Below, one piece after another: positions 538 to 30,009 of a stretch of 44,963 nucleotides of DNA. The notes beneath the pieces were generated by a model that was not told the origin of the DNA, searched no databases, and saw nothing but the letters and a program-made list of their open reading frames with translations. The translations under genes and the position numbers were made by a program. Positions within the stretch are counted from its first letter, which is position 1; every line of letters starts with the position of its first letter. The stretch is from Clostridiales bacterium. Lineage in GTDB: Bacteria > Bacillota > Clostridia > Lachnospirales > Lachnospiraceae. The stretch is from the NCBI GenBank assembly GCA_012839295.1, contig DUNO01000006.1, positions 1 through 44,963 on the forward strand, written 5' to 3'.

Positions 538-1989
538 TTACCAGTCCGATATTCTCTCCTCCATGGGATCCACAGTAAATGCCATTGCGTTGCAAAGCTT
601 CATCAACATTTCTGCCTTGAGTCCAACCTCTTTTGGGGAGCTCCACAAATTATTCCGCTCCTCCGGATCCTTCTTCATATCATACAATTCTCCTTCATTA
701 GTACTGTGAACTGCCACAAGCTTATAACGCCCGTCATACACCATTGTACACTGTGCAGTCGGATTTTTGTGCCAGGGCATAGAATTATAATACTCTGAAT
801 AGACGTAATCCTTGTGGACATTAAGCGCAGCCTTTCCTGTCAACAGGCTCCAGATGGACTTTCCCTGCATCTGCGGCTGTGGAGGAAATGAGCAAGCCTC
901 CACCAACGTCGGTGCAATATCCATTAGCTCCACCAATGCATGGCTCCTTTTCCCTTTCAGTATTGTTCCTGGGCATGACAGAATGAGCGGCACCCTGACA
1001 GCTCCCTCATAAAAATACGGTCCTTTTAAATACAAACCGTGGTCTCCCAGCATTTCCCCATGATCAGATGTAAAAATCACAATTGTATTTTCCAACTGAT
1101 TTAGCCGTTTTAAGGTATCCATTAGCCGCCCAACCTGATGGTCAATCAGTTCAATCATTGCATAATAGGATGCTTTCATCAGCCGATGCTCATATGGGCT
1201 CATATTATCATATACAATGGCCGCATTATTGGAGTCATGATTGTTGTATGCGGCTTTATGATCGACCTTCTGAAAATATGGTTTCTGTTCCAGCTCTCCT
1301 TCATGGTAATTTGGAAGAGGCAGGGAATCCAGACGCTCCAAATAGGGCTCCAGATATGCCCGCGGAGGATCAAAGGGATGATGAGGGTCATAGATATTCA
1401 TGGAAAACATCCATTGGTTCCCATATTCCGCGTTAGCCTCTATAAAGTTGATTGCCTTTTCCGTACACCAGGTAGTCTGATGGTATTCCTCATCCATCCC
1501 GTATTGGACGAGTTTGGAGCCTTCTACATTGCTTGAATGAAAACGCTGCCCCCTTTCCCTCAGCCACTGGAAATATTCGTGAGTCGCCCACCCATCATGT
1601 CCTCCATGGGACCAATGAAACACGGAGTAACCGTCATCTCCCCTCTCTTCCATTGCCTTACACACAGTCGGAGCACAGGGATTTAAATGCAGCTTCCCTG
1701 ATAACCCGCATACATAACCGTTTTCATTAAAAATACGGCTGATCAGTTTTTCATCTGTTTTGAATCTCTGTCCGTTCTGACGACACCTGGTTGTTCGGGG
1801 ATATCTCCCGGTCAGGAAGCTTGCCCTGCTGGGAGTACAGGTAGGATTCTGGCAGTAGGCCTGTTCAAACAGCACTCCATTTTCGGCTAAGCGATCCAGA
1901 TTCGGCGTATGAATATATTGGTTTCCATAACACCCCAACGTGTCTCCTCTTTGCTGATCCGTACAAATCCATAATACATTATATGGCAT
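538..1989 (-). CDS. Cysteine-type sulfatase (alkaline phosphatase superfamily)
   Basis: Predicted sulfate-ester hydrolase of 483 residues. The sulfatase signature CTPSRASFLTGR starts at Cys51; in this family the cysteine is converted to formylglycine, which attacks the sulfate ester. Other expected elements are the metal-binding TDQ near residue 10, GKLH (98-101), and SDHGEMLGDHG (308-318) followed by Lys322. There is no signal peptide, so it should act in the cytoplasm on imported substrate. It is the last gene of the operon, 12 bp after the second ATPase, with AAAGGAG in front of the ATG. No maturase (anSME) is present in the window, although an anaerobe needs one for this type. Choline-sulfatase or arylsulfatase specificity cannot be decided from sequence alone. 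Confidence 0.9.
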   Translation of the reverse strand: MPYNVLWICTDQQRGDTLGCYGNQYIHTPNLDRLAENGVLFEQAYCQNPTCTPSRASFLTGRYPRTTRCRQNGQRFKTDEKLISRIFNENGYVCGLSGKLHLNPCAPTVCKAMEERGDDGYSVFHWSHGGHDGWATHEYFQWLRERGQRFHSSNVEGSKLVQYGMDEEYHQTTWCTEKAINFIEANAEYGNQWMFSMNIYDPHHPFDPPRAYLEPYLERLDSLPLPNYHEGELEQKPYFQKVDHKAAYNNHDSNNAAIVYDNMSPYEHRLMKASYYAMIELIDHQVGRLMDTLKRLNQLENTIVIFTSDHGEMLGDHGLYLKGPYFYEGAVRVPLILSCPGTILKGKRSHALVELMDIAPTLVEACSFPPQPQMQGKSIWSLLTGKAALNVHKDYVYSEYYNSMPWHKNPTAQCTMVYDGRYKLVAVHSTNEGELYDMKKDPEERNNLWSSPKEVGLKAEMLMKLCNAMAFTVDPMEERISDW

Positions 1990-2001: not shown

Positions 2002-2742
2002 CTACCACCATTTGATCAAATCCGTAATTCTGTTTCTAAGCTTAACAAATTCCGGATCTGCAATATCTCTCGGGCGTTCAAAATCATCTATCACACATTC
2101 CTTGATTGAGGTTGGTTTATTCGTCAATACCAGGATTCTGTCTCCCAGATAAACCGCTTCTTCAATATTGTGTGTAATAAAGATTACCGTAGTGTTCGTC
2201 TGCTTGCAGAGTCTGATTACTTCATCCTCAAGCTTAAACCTTAGGTTGATATCCAGCTGTCCATATGGCTCATCCATGAGAAGCAGCTCCGGCTGTGTAG
2301 CAAATGCCCTTGCAATTACCACTCTTTGCAGCATACTGGCGGACAACTGTTTAGGATAATAGTCCTCAAAGCCTTTGAGCCCTACCAGCTCAATTGCATC
2401 ATTTACCTTTTTGTCCATATCAATTCTGTCTTTTTTTATCTCCAAGCCAAACTTGACGTTTTGCCTTACCGTCAGCCATTCCATGGCTGAATATTCCTGG
2501 AAAATATAAGTGATATTATGTTTTTTTAAATCAATCGTCTCTCCGTTAAACAAAATACTGCCCGATGTCGGTTCATAGAGCTTTGTCAGGCTATTCAAAA
2601 ATGTAGTTTTACCGCATCCTGTAGGTCCCACAATGCACAGGAATTCTCCGCTATATACGTCAAACGATATGTCATCCAGCACCAGAAGATCTCCAAACTT
2701 CTTCGTAAGATTCTTAACCTGGATTTTGACTGGTCTCTCCAT
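2002..2742 (-). CDS. ABC importer ATPase 1 (SsuB/TauB type), degenerate signature motif
   Basis: ATP-binding subunit of 246 residues of the nitrate/sulfonate/taurine importer class. Walker A GPTGCGKT (39-46), Walker B LLLMDEP (about 153-159) and the switch histidine in FITH (191) are intact. The ABC signature reads LSASM (133-137) instead of LSGGM, losing both glycines. The start is placed at MERPVK because AGGAGGAG lies 7 bp in front of it; a longer frame to 2769 has no such site and would overlap the previous gene. It pairs logically with ATPase 2, which has a normal signature but lacks the switch histidine. Confidence 0.9.
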   Translation of the reverse strand: MERPVKIQVKNLTKKFGDLLVLDDISFDVYSGEFLCIVGPTGCGKTTFLNSLTKLYEPTSGSILFNGETIDLKKHNITYIFQEYSAMEWLTVRQNVKFGLEIKKDRIDMDKKVNDAIELVGLKGFEDYYPKQLSASMLQRVVIARAFATQPELLLMDEPYGQLDINLRFKLEDEVIRLCKQTNTTVIFITHNIEEAVYLGDRILVLTNKPTSIKECVIDDFERPRDIADPEFVKLRNRITDLIKWW

Positions 2743-2755
2743 ATATCCACTCCTC

Positions 2756-3529
2756 CTATGCATTTTCATCCATATATTTCGTGATTTCTTTCCTCAGCTT
2801 CAAAAACTCCGGATCCATAATATTCCTTGGCCGTGGAAGAGAAATCCTATATTCTGCCGTAATTTTCCCTGGACAACTGGAGAGCAGTATAATCCGGTCT
2901 GCAAGGTATAAGGCCTCTTCAATATTATTTGTCACAAATACTACGGTTCTCTTCTGCTGATTCCATATCTGTTCCAGTGATTCCTGCATCATATACCTTG
3001 TCTGTGCATCCAGATGTCCGAAAGGTTCGTCCATCAGGAGCACATCCGGGTTACTGCAATAGGCTCTCGCAATTCCAACTCTCTGCTTCATGCCTCCTGA
3101 AAGCTGGACCGGATAGCTCTTTTCAAAACCATTCAGTCCCACCAGGTCAACAAAATGCTGCACTTGCTTCCTGCGTTCTTTTATGCCCTCATTGCGTACC
3201 TTTAAGCCAAATTCCACATTGCCCCATACCGTAAGCCATGGAAACAGCGCCATCGTCTGATATACTACCGCCCGACTGTGATCCGGCTTTGTAATTTCCT
3301 TTTCATTATGTACGATCTTACCGTCCGTACATGGTTCAATGCCTGCAAGCATGTACAACAGTGTCGTTTTTCCGCATTGGCCTGGGCCGAATATTACCAG
3401 AAATTCATTTTCTTCTACCTCAAACGATAAATCCTCCAAAACCTGAAACTCAGATTTTTTTATTGCAAAAGATTTTGACACATGCCTGCAGGAAAGCTTA
3501 GGAGCCTTCATCTTCCCTGATTGTTCCAT
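2756..3529 (-). CDS. ABC importer ATPase 2 (SsuB/TauB type), switch histidine replaced by Asn
   Basis: Second ATP-binding subunit, 257 residues. Walker A GPGQCGKT (48-55), the signature LSGGM (143-147) and Walker B VLLMDEP (163-169) are canonical. The H-loop reads FVTNN, with Asn at 201 where the partner protein has the usual histidine. The codon there is AAT on the minus strand, so this is not a translation slip. The start ATG overlaps the end of the permease gene by 22 bp and has GAGGAGG 8 bp upstream. Together with ATPase 1 it is expected to form an asymmetric heterodimer on the cytoplasmic face of the two permeases. Confidence 0.9.
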   Translation of the reverse strand: MEQSGKMKAPKLSCRHVSKSFAIKKSEFQVLEDLSFEVEENEFLVIFGPGQCGKTTLLYMLAGIEPCTDGKIVHNEKEITKPDHSRAVVYQTMALFPWLTVWGNVEFGLKVRNEGIKERRKQVQHFVDLVGLNGFEKSYPVQLSGGMKQRVGIARAYCSNPDVLLMDEPFGHLDAQTRYMMQESLEQIWNQQKRTVVFVTNNIEEALYLADRIILLSSCPGKITAEYRISLPRPRNIMDPEFLKLRKEITKYMDENA

Positions 3530-4275
3530 ACCAAAAGCCTCCTCTCCATCAGCCTCATTCCTGTGGCCAGAAGAAATCCAACCATACCGATTGCTATCAT
3601 GCCCGAAATCATCTGAGGCATATCATTTACTTGCTGCCCGGCGATAATCACCCAGCCAATCCCATAAGAGGAGCGAATCATTTCCGCTGCCAGCATGGTC
3701 ATCCACGCATTCGACAGGGCAACCTGCGCTCCGGAGAATATCTGGGGAACAGCAGACGGAATTACAATTTTAAAAAATATTTGGGTATCATTGGCTCCCA
3801 GCATCTTAGCAGCCCCAATCAGCTGCCTGTTCGTTTTTACCGCTCCCGCATATGCATTCAATGTAAAAGGTACAAAGGAAGCAATGAATATCAGAAAATA
3901 TTTAGATTTCTCTTCAATTCCCAGCCATAGAATTGCTAACGGAATCCATGCCAGGGGAGCAATCGGTCTGAGCAGATCAAAAAGTGGTTTAAAAATTGCC
4001 CGTACCGTATCAAACCATCCCATAGTCAGTCCCAGGATAATTCCAAGAGCAGCTGCCGTGCAAAATCCTACCATTACCCTTGATAAGCTCCAAAGCACAT
4101 GTCCCCACAGCCGGTATGGCCCCATTGGTTCAATCATGGAGCGGAAGAAGCGGACAATGACTGCCGCCGGTGTCGGAAACCGGGTGCTCCCCGTCAGTGT
4201 AATGGCCAGCTGCCACAAAAGCAGCAGCACACCAAATGAAATCACACCATACAGGGCACTTTTTAGTTTTTTCAT
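3508..4275 (-). CDS. ABC importer permease 2 (SsuC/TauC type)
   Basis: Membrane subunit of about 255 residues with the BPD_transp_1 layout: an N-terminal segment near 12-28, then about five more hydrophobic segments. The cytoplasmic EAA loop that docks on the ATPase reads AAKMLGANDTQIFFKIVIP. The start is set at the ATG at 4275, whose A is shared with the last base of the upstream permease stop codon (TGATG); GGGGGAG lies 7 bp ahead. A GTG three bases earlier is less well placed. This is a distinct paralogue of permease 1, so the membrane core is probably a heterodimer. Confidence 0.9.
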   Translation of the reverse strand: MKKLKSALYGVISFGVLLLLWQLAITLTGSTRFPTPAAVIVRFFRSMIEPMGPYRLWGHVLWSLSRVMVGFCTAAALGIILGLTMGWFDTVRAIFKPLFDLLRPIAPLAWIPLAILWLGIEEKSKYFLIFIASFVPFTLNAYAGAVKTNRQLIGAAKMLGANDTQIFFKIVIPSAVPQIFSGAQVALSNAWMTMLAAEMIRSSYGIGWVIIAGQQVNDMPQMISGMIAIGMVGFLLATGMRLMERRLLVWNNQGR

Positions 4276-5057
4276 CACTGTACTCCCCCTTTTACAAATC
4301 TGTCTTCAAGAAGATCCAGGCCTGCCGAAAGGATAAATCCGATCAAACCAATTGTAATCATACCTACGACCACCACATCTGCCCTGATTAACAGCCGTCC
4401 CATCTGGATCATGAAGCCCAGTCCTTTGGATGATCCCAGCATCTCTGCTGCCAGCAGGGAGGTCCAGGAAGCATTTAAGGAAACCTTCATACCGGTAAAA
4501 ATATAGGGCAGGGCAGTGGGAATTGCAACCTTCCCCAAAATCGCAGACCATGATGCCCCAAAGGTCTGTGCCACCCATATATGCACGTTTTTTGTTGCCT
4601 TAATCCCTGTATAAGAGTTGATGACACAGGGTATAAATGCTGAAAGAAAAACAATTGCTGCCTTTGCAAAAATTCCAATTCCCAGTATAATTATCATAAT
4701 TGGAATCCATGCAATTGACGGAATGGTACGCACAAAATCAAATACCGGTTTCGCAAATAAATCAAACTTTTTATACCAGGCCATCAAGATCCCTAAAGGA
4801 ATTCCTATGATACATCCCAGCAGGAAGCCCAACAGGGATACCTGCAAACTGACTATAATATGACTGCCCAGTGTGGCACCGTCCGGAGCAGCCTCTGTCA
4901 GCTTGGCTCCGAATGTTTCCAGTACCTTTCCTGGTGACGGAAGGGAGGTCGGCGGCACCAACCTCAAAACCTGTGTGCACAGCTGCCAAACCGCCAGAAA
5001 GGTCAGTATGGATACTATAGACAGGATTTTCAAACGCACTTTTTTGTTAATCTTCAT
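4275..5057 (-). CDS. ABC importer permease 1 (SsuC/TauC type)
   Basis: Membrane subunit of 260 residues, same family as its downstream neighbour but clearly diverged. It has a transmembrane segment at about 9-28 and the usual set of later segments, with an EAA loop reading VAQTFGASWSAILGKVAIP. The pattern PSIAWIPIMIIILGIG is typical for permeases of the nitrate, sulfonate and taurine class. It lies 62 bp after the binding protein gene and is translationally coupled to permease 2. Importers of this class usually need one permease gene; two different ones here imply a heterodimeric pore. Confidence 0.9.
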   Translation of the reverse strand: MKINKKVRLKILSIVSILTFLAVWQLCTQVLRLVPPTSLPSPGKVLETFGAKLTEAAPDGATLGSHIIVSLQVSLLGFLLGCIIGIPLGILMAWYKKFDLFAKPVFDFVRTIPSIAWIPIMIIILGIGIFAKAAIVFLSAFIPCVINSYTGIKATKNVHIWVAQTFGASWSAILGKVAIPTALPYIFTGMKVSLNASWTSLLAAEMLGSSKGLGFMIQMGRLLIRADVVVVGMITIGLIGFILSAGLDLLEDRFVKGGVQ

Positions 5058-5119: not shown

Positions 5120-6226
5120 TTACTTGTTATACGCTTCAATTGCCTTGTTTAATAAATCAGGTTTAATATTTCCGAATACCTTAGTCAGATCATCCTCGGA
5201 AATTTTCTCGATTGATGCAAAAAATTCAGCCATACGTTTAAAGGGAGCCGTTGTATCCGCACCTGTAAAATCTGATACTGTGAGAAACGGCCGTTCCAAA
5301 ACCTGATTACGGACGCTCTCCGGATCCACCTCCTGTCCATTAACTTCATACCAGTCCACCATAGCATTTAACAACGTCTCGTCATCCTGAAACGCATCGG
5401 CACACCGCAGCATTTGAGTCAGAAGCGCTACCAGGGTTTCTTCATTTTCTGCCTTTTCATAGAATTTCCGGTTGACAATCATATTGTCATAGTAGGGGCA
5501 TTTTGCGGAAATCATATTAACCGCAGATACATAGCCCTCCTTCAGATAATCATCAGTGGTCGGATATGCAGTTGCTGAAAAATCTCCTTGGCCGGATACA
5601 AATGCCTGGTATCCTTCTGCATGGTTCATATTGACCATATTGATATCCGACTCTTTCAAACCCATGGCGTTAAGGTATTCACCCAACAGCAGATGATGAC
5701 CGCTTCCAATGGGAAACATGAAGGTTTTTCCCTTGATTGTCTCTGGACTTCCATATACATCCGGATAATCCGGCAAATATCCTTTAACCTGCGCAATGTC
5801 ACTGTCTGCTCTTACCATAAAATCCAATCCCGCCGAGCTGTCCTCGTGTGAGATAATATGCACTGCATCATAAACACTGCAGGACAATACACCAGCCGCC
5901 CCAATTGTCGCCACATCCCATAAATCAGCCCCTAACGCCTCATTCATGGGTGCCCCGCTTTGAAATGTTGTAAGCTCCAGCTTAAACCCGTTTTCTACAT
6001 CCCATCCTTGCTGGCTGATGTAGTATAACGGCAGGCTTAACTGCTGGGGCATGACCGCTGCACGTATCACAACCGGCTTGTCTGCTCCCTCTGTCGCCTC
6101 TGCTTGTACTTGATCTCCTCCTGCTTCAGTATCCGGCTTACCCGCCCCATTCTGTGAATTACCGCATCCACTCAGCACAAAAACAACGAGACCTACTGCC
6201 AACGCAAAGCTTAATAATCTTTTCAT
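5120..6226 (-). CDS. NMT1/TauA-type substrate-binding lipoprotein
   Basis: Extracellular solute-binding protein of 368 residues that delivers substrate to the two-permease importer. The chosen start MKRLLSFALA gives a clean lipoprotein signal ending LSGC with Cys21; a longer frame to 6367 would bury this signal and has no Shine-Dalgarno site, while AAGGAAGGGG precedes the chosen ATG. After the lipobox comes a short low-complexity linker, then a periplasmic-binding fold that resembles the NMT1/TauA/SsuA group (pattern PQQLSLPLYYISQQGW, later TFMFPIGSGHH). It is the first gene of the operon. The ligand is unknown; the sulfatase in the operon suggests a sulfated or sulfonated compound. Confidence 0.85.
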   Translation of the reverse strand: MKRLLSFALAVGLVVFVLSGCGNSQNGAGKPDTEAGGDQVQAEATEGADKPVVIRAAVMPQQLSLPLYYISQQGWDVENGFKLELTTFQSGAPMNEALGADLWDVATIGAAGVLSCSVYDAVHIISHEDSSAGLDFMVRADSDIAQVKGYLPDYPDVYGSPETIKGKTFMFPIGSGHHLLLGEYLNAMGLKESDINMVNMNHAEGYQAFVSGQGDFSATAYPTTDDYLKEGYVSAVNMISAKCPYYDNMIVNRKFYEKAENEETLVALLTQMLRCADAFQDDETLLNAMVDWYEVNGQEVDPESVRNQVLERPFLTVSDFTGADTTAPFKRMAEFFASIEKISEDDLTKVFGNIKPDLLNKAIEAYNK

Positions 6227-6266
6227 TTGAAATCCCCTTCCTTGTATTTGAATTATTGACACTGCT

Positions 6267-6272
6267 ATCATA
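6267..6272 (-). promoter_or_regulatory. Candidate -10 box for the importer-sulfatase operon
   Basis: TATGAT on the minus strand lies about 40 bp before the binding-protein start. The -35 position at proper distance (TGGAGA) is poor, which fits a promoter that needs an activator. The nearest 16-bp repeat (6316-6331) would sit about 55-70 bp upstream of the expected start. Confidence 0.35.
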
Positions 6273-6315
6273 GCGAATTCTTGTCTGTATTCTCCATGAT
6301 TATTCTTACCTCTTC

Positions 6316-6392
6316 TATCAAGTTTTTGACTTTCTTCTTTCCATCCTTTCCCCCGCCATATCAACATTTTGACTTATATCAATTTTTTGACT
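6316..6392. repeat. Three copies of a 16-bp direct repeat, likely regulator sites
   Basis: TATCAANNTTTTGACT occurs at 6316-6331, 6359-6374 and 6377-6392, the two variable bases being GT, CA and TT. Offsets are 43 and 18 bp. Each copy contains an inner inverted pair TCAA/TTGA. The repeats lie between the importer-sulfatase operon and the divergent sensor kinase gene, where a DNA-binding response regulator would be expected to act. The response regulator two genes away is the natural candidate (inference). Confidence 0.65.
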
Positions 6393-6472: not shown

Positions 6473-8242
6473 ATGTTCAGCATTAAGAAAATTTTAATTT
6501 TCACACAATCCACCATCATGATTATTCTGACGATTCTCCTCTCCATCTCCTGCTATAAATACTATGGGAATACTACTCTGGAAATTATCAGCAACAACAA
6601 ACAGCAAAGTCTTCGCCTGATTTCCCAGAAATTAGATTCTGTTGTCAGCTCAGCCGGTACCATCTCCGATTTAATTTCAGAAGATGATGAGATTATGGGA
6701 ACCCTGTATTCCGACACCCTTGATATCATTAATATTCCACAGGTCAAATCCAATATCGACAACATTTATATGAAATATTTTCGTTCTTTTCAGCAGATTG
6801 GTATCTCTTTCTATATCATCTGCATGGGTGAAAACGGATTTGAGTATTGCTCTAAAAGCGGCTACAGCCATGAGAATTTTCAGAATATCCGTGCCTACTC
6901 CTGGTTTACAAAAAATATTGCCAATCAGACCTCTTATTATCTGATTCCCAATTTTGTGGATTCTGCTGCCGGAACCTCTTCCGATGCCAATAACCTGGCC
7001 ATTATTCGGAATATTTATAATGGGCAACAGGAATACATCGGCTCCGTATTGGTATGCATCCCTGAGGCTACCCTTGAAAGCTCTTACATTGCAATGGCAA
7101 CCTCCGATGCTGACCTCTATATTATTGACGATCTCTCCCGCGTAATCAGCAGTACTAATAAGGACACCATCGGTAAAATACCTTTTCTGCTTTCTGACTA
7201 CACATTTACAAGAAATTCAAATAACTACTATATTTACGACAGGGACTCCCAAAAATACTACGGGGCAAAATATAAATCCGTCAACACCGGGTGGACCGTT
7301 TATGAGCAGACTCCCTTAAGTGTGATTCTGGCACCGTTAACAGGACTCCTGCGGGGAACAATTCTATTGGCCTGCCTGGGTTGTCTTTTTTGCATCTTTG
7401 TTTCTACTATAATTGCTGATAAGATCAGCAAGCCGATCTACGAATTTTCCCAAAAAATCCAAAATGCCACAGCCAATGGCCTTCGCTCCACCAGAACTCC
7501 CTCAAGGCTAAAGGAGCTTGATTCCCTGGATCGCTGTTTTGACTCCATGCAACTTGAATTGGCCGAATGGATGCTGCGTACCCGCCAGCGGGAAAAGGAC
7601 ATTAACACTGCCAAATATAATTTCCTGCGGGCGCAGATAAATCCACATTTTTTATATAACACCCTATTCTCCATTAAGTGCATGGTTTCCATGGGTCATA
7701 GGGAACAGGCCTGTGAGATGATAGAAATTTTAATTTCTCTTCTGCGATATTCGATCAGTAACAATAACTCCCATATTTCACTCCTGGATGAATGCACTTA
7801 CCTCTCACAATACGTCAAGCTACAGAATCTACGCTACAACGGAAAAATACAGCTAATTCTCGATATCCCGGATGCCCTGTTGGATGCAGTAATTCCCAGA
7901 TTTATTCTTCAGCCCATTGTGGAAAACTCCATCCTTCATGGAATGCCGGATAATGATGAAATCAATGTCATCCATCTGAATTTTACAAAGCAGGAGGAGA
8001 ACCTTCTCATAACCATCACGGACGACGGCCCCGGCATTGATAGCACTACCTTCCAAAACCTTATGAATAACAGCTTAAATAACACTACCATACAAGATTC
8101 TTCTCATATTGGTCTAAACAATATAAAAGATCGTATCGTTTTAAGTTATGGAGAAGAATATGGCTTATCCTTGAAGCCGGACTCAAGTGGTAGAAATCAT
8201 TTGTCCATCCTGCTTCCTATAATTAAAAAAGCAAATGAATAA
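6473..8242 (+). CDS. YesM-type membrane sensor histidine kinase
   Basis: Sensor kinase of 589 residues. Transmembrane segment 1 is at about 7-27, followed by an extracellular sensing region of some 260 residues (dCache-like), transmembrane segment 2 at about 288-315, and a HAMP linker. The His_kinase domain contains QINPHFLYNTLFS with the phospho-accepting His392. The ATPase part shows the N-box PIVENSILHG and the G-box TDDGPGID. GGAAAGGAA precedes the ATG. The response regulator follows 44 bp downstream. Kinases of this type often control nearby carbohydrate or solute uptake genes, here the divergent importer-sulfatase operon. Confidence 0.92.
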   Translation: MFSIKKILIFTQSTIMIILTILLSISCYKYYGNTTLEIISNNKQQSLRLISQKLDSVVSSAGTISDLISEDDEIMGTLYSDTLDIINIPQVKSNIDNIYMKYFRSFQQIGISFYIICMGENGFEYCSKSGYSHENFQNIRAYSWFTKNIANQTSYYLIPNFVDSAAGTSSDANNLAIIRNIYNGQQEYIGSVLVCIPEATLESSYIAMATSDADLYIIDDLSRVISSTNKDTIGKIPFLLSDYTFTRNSNNYYIYDRDSQKYYGAKYKSVNTGWTVYEQTPLSVILAPLTGLLRGTILLACLGCLFCIFVSTIIADKISKPIYEFSQKIQNATANGLRSTRTPSRLKELDSLDRCFDSMQLELAEWMLRTRQREKDINTAKYNFLRAQINPHFLYNTLFSIKCMVSMGHREQACEMIEILISLLRYSISNNNSHISLLDECTYLSQYVKLQNLRYNGKIQLILDIPDALLDAVIPRFILQPIVENSILHGMPDNDEINVIHLNFTKQEENLLITITDDGPGIDSTTFQNLMNNSLNNTTIQDSSHIGLNNIKDRIVLSYGEEYGLSLKPDSSGRNHLSILLPIIKKANE

Positions 8243-8286: not shown

Positions 8287-9765
8287 ATGATTAGTTACCT
8301 GATTGTAGATGATGAATATCCAATTCGTGAATGGCTTGTTTTTACTATTAAGCAAAACTGTCCGGATGTCCTGGTCGAGTCAGCGGATAATGGGGCAGAG
8401 GCGCTTATAAAGCTTCAATCAAAGCAATATGACTTTCTGTTTACCGATATCCGGATGCCAAAACTAAATGGACTGGAATTGCTGCAAAGTGTTCAGACCA
8501 TCAGTCCATCCACCAAAGTAATCGTGTTGAGCAGCTATGACGATTATAATTATGTACGTCATGCATTTAAACATTTTGCCCTGGATTATCTTTTGAAAGC
8601 TGAGATTACAGAAGATCAGTTGGTTCAGATGATTACACAGCAGCAGAACCTGCTTAAAAATACCAATACAAAGCAGGATATCCAGAATCTTATTATTAAA
8701 TATATCAACAATGAAGCTATGTCCTTTGCAGATTTTGACCAGGAGTTGCGCAGATACGGCGTCACACTCCCGGAATCTGATTTTTTCTGTTATTTTATCA
8801 AAGCATCCGGGTCAGTTTCCTCAGAAGATATGATGATACGCATACCATCTATAAAAAATACGGAATGTGTACTCTTTTGTAATCTGTCAGAACAAAGTCA
8901 GCTTGGTATCATCCATATGAAACAGAAAAGCCGTCTTATGCAGCTTCAGGAACGAAACCTCTTTTTTAATGAGTTAAAGCAGTTCAATACGTATTCTTTG
9001 ATTCTAGCCAGTGATATATATAGGACAAAGCCCGGCCATCTTAAAATCCTGCGCCTCACCGCGGCCTATCGGGATACAGAGTTTTACGGCATCAGCTTTC
9101 ATGCTATTACGGAGGCCTCATCCTCTTGGAACGTATCATTTGACCAGGAATATTTAAAAATACTTAAAAATATAAAATTTCAGAATTGGGAGGATATTAA
9201 GGGAAGCCTGCTTCAATTTTTAAATTATATTGGATCGGTACGTTATCCTGATATCAAGCGCTTAAAGGACTCCCTTGAAAAGCTGTATGAAATCAGCTAT
9301 GTCTATAAGACCCCAAAGCATGACAGGAGATACAGCGAAAAACTGCGTGATGCCAGCAGTAAAATTGCCGGCGCCCCGCAGTTTATGGATTTGCAACGGA
9401 TAGCTCTCGCAGAGTTTGAAGCCCTTTATTCCACTCCCACTAAGACTATGCTGTCACCTAATATTCTCTGTTGCATTGATTACATTGAAAGCCACTATAT
9501 GCAGGAAATCAGCCTAAATGACCTTGCCAATCATGTCCATCTGAATCCTGAATATTTGTCCCGGCATTTTAAAAAACAGACCGGATCCAATTTCAGCAGT
9601 TATCTGACCAGCTACAGGCTGAGCAAAGCGGCCATCCTGATAAAAGACACAAATGAAAAGATATCTGAAATCTCTTTACAGGTAGGATTTAATAACTTCG
9701 CATATTTCTCCAAATGTTTTAAAGATATCTATGGATGTTCGCCGATGGAATGGCGAAACCAATAA
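8287..9765 (+). CDS. YesN-type response regulator with AraC DNA-binding domain
   Basis: Response regulator of 492 residues. The receiver domain has the acidic pair Asp8/Asp9, phospho-acceptor Asp54 in FTDIRMPKLNG, and the conserved lysine in DYLLKAE. A middle region of about 250 residues has no obvious family. The C-terminal 100 residues are two AraC helix-turn-helix units ending in the typical FNNFAYFSKCFKDIYGCSPMEW pattern (quoted only as the family hallmark around 9690-9755). It pairs with the kinase directly upstream and probably binds the 16-bp repeats at 6316-6392. Confidence 0.92.
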   Translation: MISYLIVDDEYPIREWLVFTIKQNCPDVLVESADNGAEALIKLQSKQYDFLFTDIRMPKLNGLELLQSVQTISPSTKVIVLSSYDDYNYVRHAFKHFALDYLLKAEITEDQLVQMITQQQNLLKNTNTKQDIQNLIIKYINNEAMSFADFDQELRRYGVTLPESDFFCYFIKASGSVSSEDMMIRIPSIKNTECVLFCNLSEQSQLGIIHMKQKSRLMQLQERNLFFNELKQFNTYSLILASDIYRTKPGHLKILRLTAAYRDTEFYGISFHAITEASSSWNVSFDQEYLKILKNIKFQNWEDIKGSLLQFLNYIGSVRYPDIKRLKDSLEKLYEISYVYKTPKHDRRYSEKLRDASSKIAGAPQFMDLQRIALAEFEALYSTPTKTMLSPNILCCIDYIESHYMQEISLNDLANHVHLNPEYLSRHFKKQTGSNFSSYLTSYRLSKAAILIKDTNEKISEISLQVGFNNFAYFSKCFKDIYGCSPMEWRNQ

Positions 9766-26877: not shown

Positions 26878-29800
26878 TTAATGCTCCAGCCGTCTGATCA
26901 CCGGGGCTTTTAAAATCCCTGTTTTTTTCAGTTGATATTCATATGCCCAGCTGTCTTTTTGTGTCCGCCATGCATTGGGATCAAAATAGATTTCATTTTC
27001 ATCACAATCATGGAGCGTTCCAAAGGTATTTATTCTATTTCCATAGCATGTAACAGTAACTATGTGTTTTCCACCCCTGATGATTTCAAAGGGTAATCTA
27101 TATGGAGCGCACATGATATCACCGATTGCTTCACCATCCAGGAAAACGCTCAATAACGCGCCTCTATACTTGGATATCTCTATTTCATAACTGCCTTGGC
27201 CCAAATCACATTCCAGGACGTAATCAACATTGCCGCCATAGAATGGCATTCCCTGCCCCGTAAGGCTGCCAAAATAATACCCGCAAGCTTCGTCCTGTCC
27301 CATTACGGCATGGTCACCCAGCACATCAATTGAAAACTCACCTAATAAATATATACTCTCTACATTCGTTTTTTGTCCAAAGGGTATGCTAACCTGTAAA
27401 ATATGTCTTCCCTTTGTCAATGGAGGAAGCTTTGCTTTTTGAATACAGGGATCTATGTAATATCCGTCCATTTCCAATAATATTTGTTTTTCATCCAGCT
27501 GAAAGCTTGCTTTGTCCAGCCCCTCCATGCCTAATTGGCACTCTCCTATGTCTTCCCTACAGCTTATCTGATAACGTAATTCCAGCAAATGCCCATCCCC
27601 TGCCTCATTCCCAATAACCCAGGGCTGGGCTAAGGCCGCTTTTCTTTGAGGATATTTTGCCTTGTCCCTGCATATGTTATCAATCCGCAAAATCTCTTCC
27701 CTTTCTTCCCACTGGCCATGGTCAAAGGAATATTCCGCCATATCAAGAACCAATACATTAGGTTCCTTTCTTTTTATATTAAGCAGGCTTCCATTGCAAT
27801 TTTTTTCCCAAATAACTTTAGGTGCCTTCATCTGTAATTTCTTTTCACTCCTGCCGGGTGTCAAATGTAAAAGCAAGCTGTCATATTCAAATAAGACAGG
27901 ATAAATGATGGTGGTTCCTTCTTTATAGTCCGCTTCTATTTCCTGGATTTCCCCATTCATTGAATTAAGGAGGGTTGGCTGCCATTCTCCCTGTATCGTG
28001 ACCTGTAATTTATCATCAAATATTAAGTCCGGATTTTCTACCGGCTTTCCATTCGCAATAAATAACCATCTTTCACCCTTTTCTTCCCTCATCTGATAAA
28101 TATATTTTTGGGTGCGCTCACCATCCCAGTTCTTTTTATGCTTTGGTTTCTTAAATATTTTTGTCCCCCGGTAGTGGATATCCAACACCCGGAAAGGTTC
28201 CAATATTTGCTGCAGCGCATGTCTGGAGTATGGAATTCTGGTGCATTCCATAGCTAATTTGCCCGGATTCCCATCCTCAAGTGCATCCATATGGGTTGGT
28301 AGCTCCCCCACGAAAACAATATGCTTTCCACGTTCCTTTTCTCTTTTTAAGTATGCCACCGTAGTACCTCTTAAGGTTTTACAGCCCGGCACAAGAATCA
28401 CGTCATAGTCCATCTCCCCGAGCTTATTTTCTTTATATAAATCAGGAATAAGAGCCTCAGAAATGTAGTCATAATCTAACAAATCAAACAATAACCATTC
28501 TGTAATATTAGTGAAATTCTGCTCCAATTCTGCTCTGATGCCACAGGTTTGCTGATTTGGGCCAAAATATAACCAATAGGATTCAACCGGATGAATGATC
28601 CCTATGCGCACAAGGGCTTTTCCCCTTGTCATTGCAGTATTAACCCTTGCAAAATGATCCTCAATGCTTGGATATTTCTCATACCAGGGCGACTGAAAAC
28701 CAATGGAAGCCGGATAATCCCTTTTTGCTTCACCCCCCATACTCATCCATGTCAGGTGATGTATCCGGCTAGTCACTCCCAATGCCGCCATCCAGTCTCC
28801 CTGCAGCTTATGCCTTCTTAAATCAAAATCCCAATTTGTCACACCATACAGCTCACTGGCTACGCCTTCCCTGCCATACTGGTGGGAAACACTCTGCGCC
28901 TGCTTTACGGTAGAATACTCCCTCAGATCACACAGCATATCAATTCCTGGCAGGGCAAAGCCCCTCAAATTGCGCATAACCTCCCCTAATGCCCTTGTTT
29001 GTGAGTATAGGGTAGGCTCTTCCATCATATGCCCGCATAATTTTATTCCATGCTCATCGCACCACTGCCCTACTTGGTCGCTATATGCCCTTGCGAACCG
29101 TTCCGCCAGATGATCATGGTAGTTATAACGTGTTTTTGAAATAGCTCCACCCGGAAGTTCCCACATTATTTCAGGTAATTTATCTAAAAAGCTTTCACCG
29201 TATTGCTTCTGATAGCTTATTTCAAAGTCATCGGTAAAAGGCAGAATAATTTCAGACTTTGACCGTGCAAACCCTAAAAGCTGCTTATGCGGAAATTGGG
29301 GTTCATCCGTAAATATTGCCGGAATAGTCCTGCCAAACTCCTTTCCCAGCTCTTGATAATACTTTTCATGGGTTAAATCCAAAAACCTCCTGACCGCCTC
29401 AGGATTCAGAGTATCTACATAGGCTTGGTTATTAAACCATGGACTATCCTGTGCTATTTCAAGGTATACATACCATAGGTCAAATCCGCTTTTAGCCTTT
29501 TCTTCTTCCCCGCATTTTTCATATTGTACCAGCTCACCTTTCTCATTTAATTTAACCTGAAAGGCTACTAAAAAATCCCCTGTTCCGGCTACAGATGCGG
29601 ATGCACAGGAATCAAACTCCGCAGCCCTATCCACTTCTAAGTTCTGCTTATATGGAGTTACGGCTAAATATCTGCTCCTATATTTTTTCTCTTTTGTCAC
29701 ATACCCTCCGCCATAACCGGAAGGCCATCTGTCTTCATCATACAGCCAGCAAAACAGATCTTTCTCTTTTGCCTTTTGGACACAGGCTTTAACAATATCC

Positions 29801-30009
29801 ATAAATTCTGCTCCCATGTAGTCTGTATCCAATCCGACTCTGGTATGAATCATGAATCCGCCCATCCCCATTTTGGCAAACTGGTCAACCTGTCCTAATA
29901 CCTTATCCTTTTCCAGCTTTGTATTCCACGCCCAGAACGGAGCACCCCGAAATTCTTTTCCCGGATTCTTAAATAGCTCTTTTGTAAATAACTGCTCTTG
30001 ATATAGCAT
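26878..30009 (-). CDS. Large cytoplasmic GH106-like glycosidase
   Basis: Protein of 1043 residues without signal peptide. The N-terminal region carries FRGAPFWAWNTKL, GMGGFMIHTRVGL and LYDEDRWPSGYGGG, the pattern of the alpha-L-rhamnosidase (GH106)-like group with a TIM-barrel start. A beta-rich middle and a C-terminal galactose-binding-like domain (about 900-1010) follow. Acid residues in DEDRW and in FTDEPQFPHKQ are candidate catalytic residues. It lies between the sugar permease genes and the dehydrogenase, so it should cleave an imported glycoside inside the cell. Assignment to GH106 proper, and to rhamnose, is not certain. Confidence 0.75.
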   Translation of the reverse strand: MLYQEQLFTKELFKNPGKEFRGAPFWAWNTKLEKDKVLGQVDQFAKMGMGGFMIHTRVGLDTDYMGAEFMDIVKACVQKAKEKDLFCWLYDEDRWPSGYGGGYVTKEKKYRSRYLAVTPYKQNLEVDRAAEFDSCASASVAGTGDFLVAFQVKLNEKGELVQYEKCGEEEKAKSGFDLWYVYLEIAQDSPWFNNQAYVDTLNPEAVRRFLDLTHEKYYQELGKEFGRTIPAIFTDEPQFPHKQLLGFARSKSEIILPFTDDFEISYQKQYGESFLDKLPEIMWELPGGAISKTRYNYHDHLAERFARAYSDQVGQWCDEHGIKLCGHMMEEPTLYSQTRALGEVMRNLRGFALPGIDMLCDLREYSTVKQAQSVSHQYGREGVASELYGVTNWDFDLRRHKLQGDWMAALGVTSRIHHLTWMSMGGEAKRDYPASIGFQSPWYEKYPSIEDHFARVNTAMTRGKALVRIGIIHPVESYWLYFGPNQQTCGIRAELEQNFTNITEWLLFDLLDYDYISEALIPDLYKENKLGEMDYDVILVPGCKTLRGTTVAYLKREKERGKHIVFVGELPTHMDALEDGNPGKLAMECTRIPYSRHALQQILEPFRVLDIHYRGTKIFKKPKHKKNWDGERTQKYIYQMREEKGERWLFIANGKPVENPDLIFDDKLQVTIQGEWQPTLLNSMNGEIQEIEADYKEGTTIIYPVLFEYDSLLLHLTPGRSEKKLQMKAPKVIWEKNCNGSLLNIKRKEPNVLVLDMAEYSFDHGQWEEREEILRIDNICRDKAKYPQRKAALAQPWVIGNEAGDGHLLELRYQISCREDIGECQLGMEGLDKASFQLDEKQILLEMDGYYIDPCIQKAKLPPLTKGRHILQVSIPFGQKTNVESIYLLGEFSIDVLGDHAVMGQDEACGYYFGSLTGQGMPFYGGNVDYVLECDLGQGSYEIEISKYRGALLSVFLDGEAIGDIMCAPYRLPFEIIRGGKHIVTVTCYGNRINTFGTLHDCDENEIYFDPNAWRTQKDSWAYEYQLKKTGILKAPVIRRLEH

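Follow-up and report, generated by a model that had tools for sequence, protein, structure and literature searches.

Complementary motif defects in a conserved pair of ABC ATPases from a predicted NitT/TauT-class importer operon

In type I importers, for example the maltose transporter, a single ATPase gene supplies both ATP sites, which are equal and hard to alter singly. By profile, the operon described here matches TauABC and SsuABC in the kinds of permease, ATPase, and binding protein that it encodes; each of those two systems has one ATPase gene. The cyanobacterial nitrate and bicarbonate importers NrtBCD and CmpBCD belong to the same class, and their structure entries hold two different ATPase chains; presumably, each has one kind of permease, with an extra domain on NrtC or CmpC. 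However, CmpC, CmpD, and NrtD have a canonical Walker A, signature, and switch histidine in the alignments displayed, which covered these three chains, and asymmetry is therefore not general among two-ATPase members of the class. In ABC transporters, each ATP site pairs the Walker A/B, Q-loop, and H-loop of one subunit with the signature of its partner (accessible part of PMC7756269). The heterodimeric exporters TM287/288 and TmrAB have one consensus and one degenerate site (PMC7756269 and PMC7756565, as far as accessible), as do the heterodimeric exporters BmrCD and PatAB. Two importers of Bacillus subtilis with fused ATPases, RbsA and NupO, also have one degenerate ATP site, but in these type II importers a single chain contains both ATPase domains, and the lysine is absent from the second Walker A (accessible part of PMC11466899). 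The mycobacterial siderophore importer IrtAB is a heterodimer that binds nucleotide unequally at its two sites, but it has an exporter fold, and the accessible text contrasts it with degenerate-site transporters (PMC10246721). Among a partial set of open-licence papers, we found no degenerate-site importer of the NitT/TauT class, which is weak evidence of absence; the part of PMC12136057 that was available held no degenerate-site result. The new element here is a conserved, unfused, and apparently obligate ATPase pair with a single predicted hydrolytic site in an importer of this class.

The operon lies on the minus strand of the window, by which we mean the whole stretch of 44,963 nucleotides that was analysed. 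It encodes a substrate-binding protein of the SsuA/NMT1 kind (5120..6367), permease 1 (4275..5057), permease 2 (3508..4278), and two ATPases, A2 (2756..3529) and A1 (2002..2769), whose genes overlap. Directly downstream of A1, on the same strand, is a sulfatase gene (538..1989); by eye, its product has no signal peptide. On the plus strand are two divergent genes that by eye look like a sensor kinase (6473..8242) and an AraC-type response regulator (8287..9765), with relatives in 14 and 13 of the 42 other loci described below. The A1-type C terminus (2005-2010 in the window) ends I-[KR]-W-W, and both tryptophans are invariant in 17 aligned A1-type proteins. Elsewhere in the window, an open reading frame of 1043 residues (26878-30009, minus strand) had no Pfam match at E 1e-8.

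We then compared the products with curated families. Pfam ABC_tran, BPD_transp_1 (both permeases), and NMT1 (the binding protein) all scored above cut-off, as in a NitT/TauT-type importer. The nearest NCBIfam models were SaoA, ntrCD, TauB/TauC, and SsuA, and all fell below their cut-offs: TauB gave 168.8 and 219.5 bits against 357, TauC gave 158.9 and 155.4 bits against 342, and the binding protein reached 70.5 of the 163.5 bits set for TIGR01728. The best curated relative of permease 1 was TauC and those of permease 2 were SaoP and TauC, again below cut-off. Unlike TauABC and SsuABC proper, then, the window proteins miss every listed curated cut-off. Among solved structures, CmpBCD and NrtBCD were nearest to A2 by both sequence and fold (the fold search was for A2 alone), and CmpD was the best sequence match of A1. 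The operon shares two ATPases with these systems but not canonical motifs in both. Single-chain structure models of A2 (pLDDT 90.8) and A1 (pLDDT 86.8) predicted only the ATPase-domain fold for both.

The sequence-only reading of this locus had given A1 an intact switch histidine with a broken signature and A2 an intact signature with asparagine at the switch position. Both ATPase open reading frames were found at the coordinates given above, and translation bore out these assignments. In A1, the Walker A GPTGCGKTT (2602-2628) and the switch histidine (2170-2172) are intact, and the signature LSASM (2332-2346) is degenerate. In A2, the signature LSGGM (3089-3103) is intact, and asparagine replaces the switch histidine (2927-2929). 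We also found a third defect that the reading had lacked: the fourth residue of the A2 P-loop, GPGQCGKTT (3362-3388), is glutamine instead of glycine. Because each composite site takes its signature from the partner subunit, the three defects would fall into one site of an A1/A2 dimer and leave the other site canonical.

By similarity to A2, we gathered 43 pairs, taken as distinct by the final 180 residues of each ATPase: 31 from 22 genomes and 12 from named metagenome bins. A family survey gave 17 of them, and surveys of the order and the phylum contributed 7 and 7 further pairs; the genome sets were samples of larger groups, and motifs were read in the fetched loci. The remaining 12 (L050-L061) came from a scan of named contigs, in which, of the best 80 loci among the matches listed, these 12 had the pair and 68 had a canonical ATPase. 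All 12 are metagenome-assembled bins, named [Clostridium] symbiosum, Merdimonas, Avilachnospira, Mediterraneibacter, Oscillibacter, Fournierella, Clostridia, Spirochaetales, Brachyspira, Desulfobacteraceae, and Deltaproteobacteria (two). Deduplication had split four pairs across two loci of one genome place; these were rejoined, and L192-L195 show both genes. The 43 pairs are not independent events: on the tree, the pattern arose once.

In every pair, one ATPase of each type was encoded at a single locus, and the defects were divided between the two in the same way. All 43 A1-type proteins had the P-loop glycine and the switch histidine, and their signature glycines were replaced by Ala, Val, Ser, or Thr (position 145) and by Ser (position 146). 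All 43 A2-type proteins had both signature glycines; position 51 in the P-loop was Gln in 30, Tyr in 5, His in 3, Arg in 3, and Leu in 2, and the switch position (201) was Asn in 42 and Ser in one. Canonical relatives on the same alignment carried Gly, Gly, Gly, and His at those positions in 102 of 102 cases. Thus, neither motif was restored in any related operon, and, given a heterodimer, the claim that the defects share one composite site with the other canonical held by sequence in every pair. The A1 D-loop had Gln in 43/43, compared with Ala in 97 of the 102 canonical relatives. Identical states recurring in 43 pairs rule out sequencing error. The P-loop of the A2 type began with GPG in 41 proteins and GAG in 2. 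The sole pair with serine at the A2 switch (TSN), at L195:7664-8449 (G567), has the P-loop GPGQAGKTT. Further members can be sought with the signature GPG-x-[CSA]-GK plus T[NS]N in one ATPase and S-[AVST]-S plus THN in the other.

Our first sorting into A1 and A2 types was done partly by motif, but a motif-blind sorting by profile score alone gave the same 43 + 43 proteins. On the A2 profile, A2-type and canonical proteins were widely separated in the order set (389.9 versus 315.5 bits) and the phylum set (365.7 versus 326.4 bits). Among the best 80 contig loci listed, the gap was narrow (357.6 bits in L059 versus 350.5 bits in L062), and on the A1 profile the corresponding values were 403.8 versus 270.4 bits. 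The 350.5-bit protein, compared with 357.6 for the lowest A2-type protein, comes from a Methanomassiliicoccus bin (L062:7719-8753); it is canonical, stands as the only ATPase of its kind at the locus, and may be the nearest canonical relative of the A2 type. Only one of the 139 other ATPases was noncanonical in its motifs, a sugar-type protein in L197. Across the 68 control loci (of the best 80 listed), the 70 ATPases above 150 bits were all canonical; this count left out, at the 150-bit limit, L083 (an ATPase of another kind with an unusual signature) and also L124 (2.9 kb away on the other strand). The asymmetry had been described as unusual for importers of the SsuB/TauB class, which normally use one ATPase gene. 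The gene count agrees, as none of the 68 canonical loci, several of which are cut by contig ends, had a second ABC ATPase within 2.5 kb; among importers at large, the asymmetry itself has precedents in RbsA and NupO.

We think it likely that the operon specifies a type I importer in the nitrate/taurine/sulfonate class, in which A1 and A2 work as a heterodimer with one hydrolytic site and one silent site. Site I, made of the Walker A, Walker B, Q-loop, and switch histidine of A1 with the LSGGM of A2, would be canonical and would hydrolyse ATP. Site II would combine the altered P-loop and asparagine switch of A2 with the LSAS of A1. Since site II keeps the Walker A lysine and the Walker B aspartate and glutamate, it probably still binds ATP, with hydrolysis poor or nil. 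We infer that site II would act as a fixed strut throughout the opening and closing of site I and that the importer would spend one ATP per cycle. If this is true, two separate genes let each ATP site be altered alone, and an importer with such separable subunits could be used to test one versus two ATP per cycle.

A second reading of the same heterodimer, which we regard as unlikely, is that site II still hydrolyses ATP usefully and that its changes tune rather than silence it. The Walker A lysine, Walker B aspartate and glutamate, and Q-loop glutamine were present in 43/43 A2-type proteins. The Walker B glutamate is kept in both subunit types, whereas in human degenerate sites it is often aspartate (accessible part of PMC7756269). 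In addition, ABCC1 with asparagine for the switch histidine of its hydrolytic site showed wild-type-like transport (same source, same part). The retained glutamate and the ABCC1 result together mean that the asparagine alone need not silence site II. However, three motifs of this one site are altered together, and they stay altered in all 43 pairs, which argues against this reading.

The two types also occurred together across genomes. The family survey found 17 A2-type and 17 A1-type proteins in the same 10 of 150 genomes, the order survey 10 of each type, all in a shared set of 8 among 344, and the phylum survey 9 of each, all in a shared set of 7 among 398, at neighbouring places within the genome in every survey; the window's genome was in all three sets and one other genome (G088) was in two. 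With 6 to 18 candidates per genome scored (7 for A2 in the order, 6 for A2 in the phylum, and up to 18 in the family and A1-type surveys), the three surveys turned up no orphan A1-type or A2-type protein. A fused A2-A1 chain, as in the RbsA type, was likewise absent from the 43 loci, all of which had separate open reading frames. The two different permeases noted in the window proved general, with one permease 1 and one permease 2 in 42/43 loci. The exception was L055, a metagenome contig that lacks permease 1; at L055:3096-4748, what looks by eye like a binding protein runs in one frame into permease 2. We propose that the ATPase pair would be held in a fixed orientation on the permease 1/permease 2 pair.

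It is improbable, on this evidence, that A1 and A2 form separate homodimers or serve different permeases and that their defects are unrelated. Canonical relatives are mostly single ATPase genes, which implies homodimers in those systems. However, in an A1 homodimer both signatures would be broken, and in an A2 homodimer both switches would be asparagine and both P-loops altered; moreover, the types were not found apart in the surveys, and each locus has one permease set.

Next, we examined the history of the pair. The A1 type and the A2 type each formed a clade in a FastTree tree with 102 of the 139 canonical sequences (>200 bits, <300 residues; support 1.0 each) and in a second tree with 49 canonical sequences (UFBoot 100 each). 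Their placement as sisters had weaker support (UFBoot 89), and FastTree put one canonical sequence inside the joint A1/A2 group at a node with support of 0.28. One duplication followed by complementary loss fits these trees best. On the IQ-TREE tree, we counted no changes at the site I residues (the A1 histidine, the A1 P-loop glycine, and both A2 signature glycines) and none at the Walker B glutamate of A1 or A2. At the positions of the putative silent site, there were none at A1 146 (Ser), one at A2 201 (N to S), six at A1 145, and four at A2 51; the last two were glycine in none of the 43 proteins. The median for sampled columns was 5 changes in A1 and 8 in A2. The silent-site residues therefore look like a maintained state rather than decay. 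It is very improbable that the second site persists as a relic without selection, for although the residue varies at A2 position 51 and A1 position 145, the near fixation of A1 146 (Ser in 43/43), A2 201 (Asn in 42/43), and the D-loop glutamine of A1 contrasts with the medians of the sampled columns. Plain decay of a second copy was likewise rejected, since no type stood alone among the candidates scored and there is little variation at the changed residues that are close to fixation. Distances on the A1 and A2 trees were correlated (r = 0.87; 1000 permutations gave no value above 0.19), a value that includes the shared ancestry of linked genes. We also tabulated single-residue covariation between A1 and A2; it follows the groups, and so we claim nothing from it.

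In most loci, the gene order was binding protein, permease 1, permease 2, A2, A1. In eight loci (L057-L059 and L191-L195), A1 came first and A2 last, and these loci were a clade with support of 100 on both sides. The Spirochaetales copy (L050) was closest to one from the window's own family (L011) and may have been acquired by transfer or misbinned; as either would give this placement, we dropped the idea that the family predates the divergence of its phyla. On balance, we favour a broader picture in which this is an importer family of anaerobes, with organosulfur genes adjoining many members, whose obligate ATPase pair goes back to a single duplication and hydrolyses ATP at one site; the family would then be the type I importer counterpart of TM287/288.

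Finally, we looked at neighbouring genes for the cargo. Sulfatase relatives of several kinds were present in 18 of the 43 loci (E 1e-12) and absent from 25; L055 had a partial relative at a weaker cut-off, outside the 18. Seventeen of the 18 fell among 21 loci that resemble the window in motif and gene order; these loci do not form a clade. The window sulfatase has CTPSR at residues 51-55 (1825-1839), which we take to be the formylglycine motif. In the eight-locus clade, 5 of 8 loci had an Xsc relative, and all three candidates scanned (L191-L193) scored above the curated sulfoacetaldehyde acetyltransferase cut-off. Alanine dehydrogenase was above cut-off in L192 and class III aminotransferase in L192 and L193; together with the acetyltransferase, these presumably represent the anaerobic taurine route. 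These sulfatase and acetyltransferase neighbours hint at organosulfur cargo, which is a fair guess for many members. The likely cargo would be a small organosulfur anion, in the window perhaps a sulfate ester that is cleaved inside by the neighbouring sulfatase.

Other neighbourhoods differed. Adjoining the pair in L058, which is in the same eight-locus clade, is a relative of (R)-1-hydroxy-2-aminoethylphosphonate ammonia-lyase above cut-off (L058:2048-3481), and the cargo there may therefore be a phosphonate. Within a third group of 13 loci (clade support of 88 and 99), one locus (L199) had a sulfatase, 5 had both halves of transketolase, and a further one had the C-terminal half, with sugar-type isomerase, aldolase, or dehydrogenase genes beside some. 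The window's genome also has a second, diverged pair (G000:C7:112915-114433), with GPGHCGKTV/TNN in one ATPase and LSVST/THN in the other, and this pair adjoins split transketolase halves and an RpiB-like isomerase.
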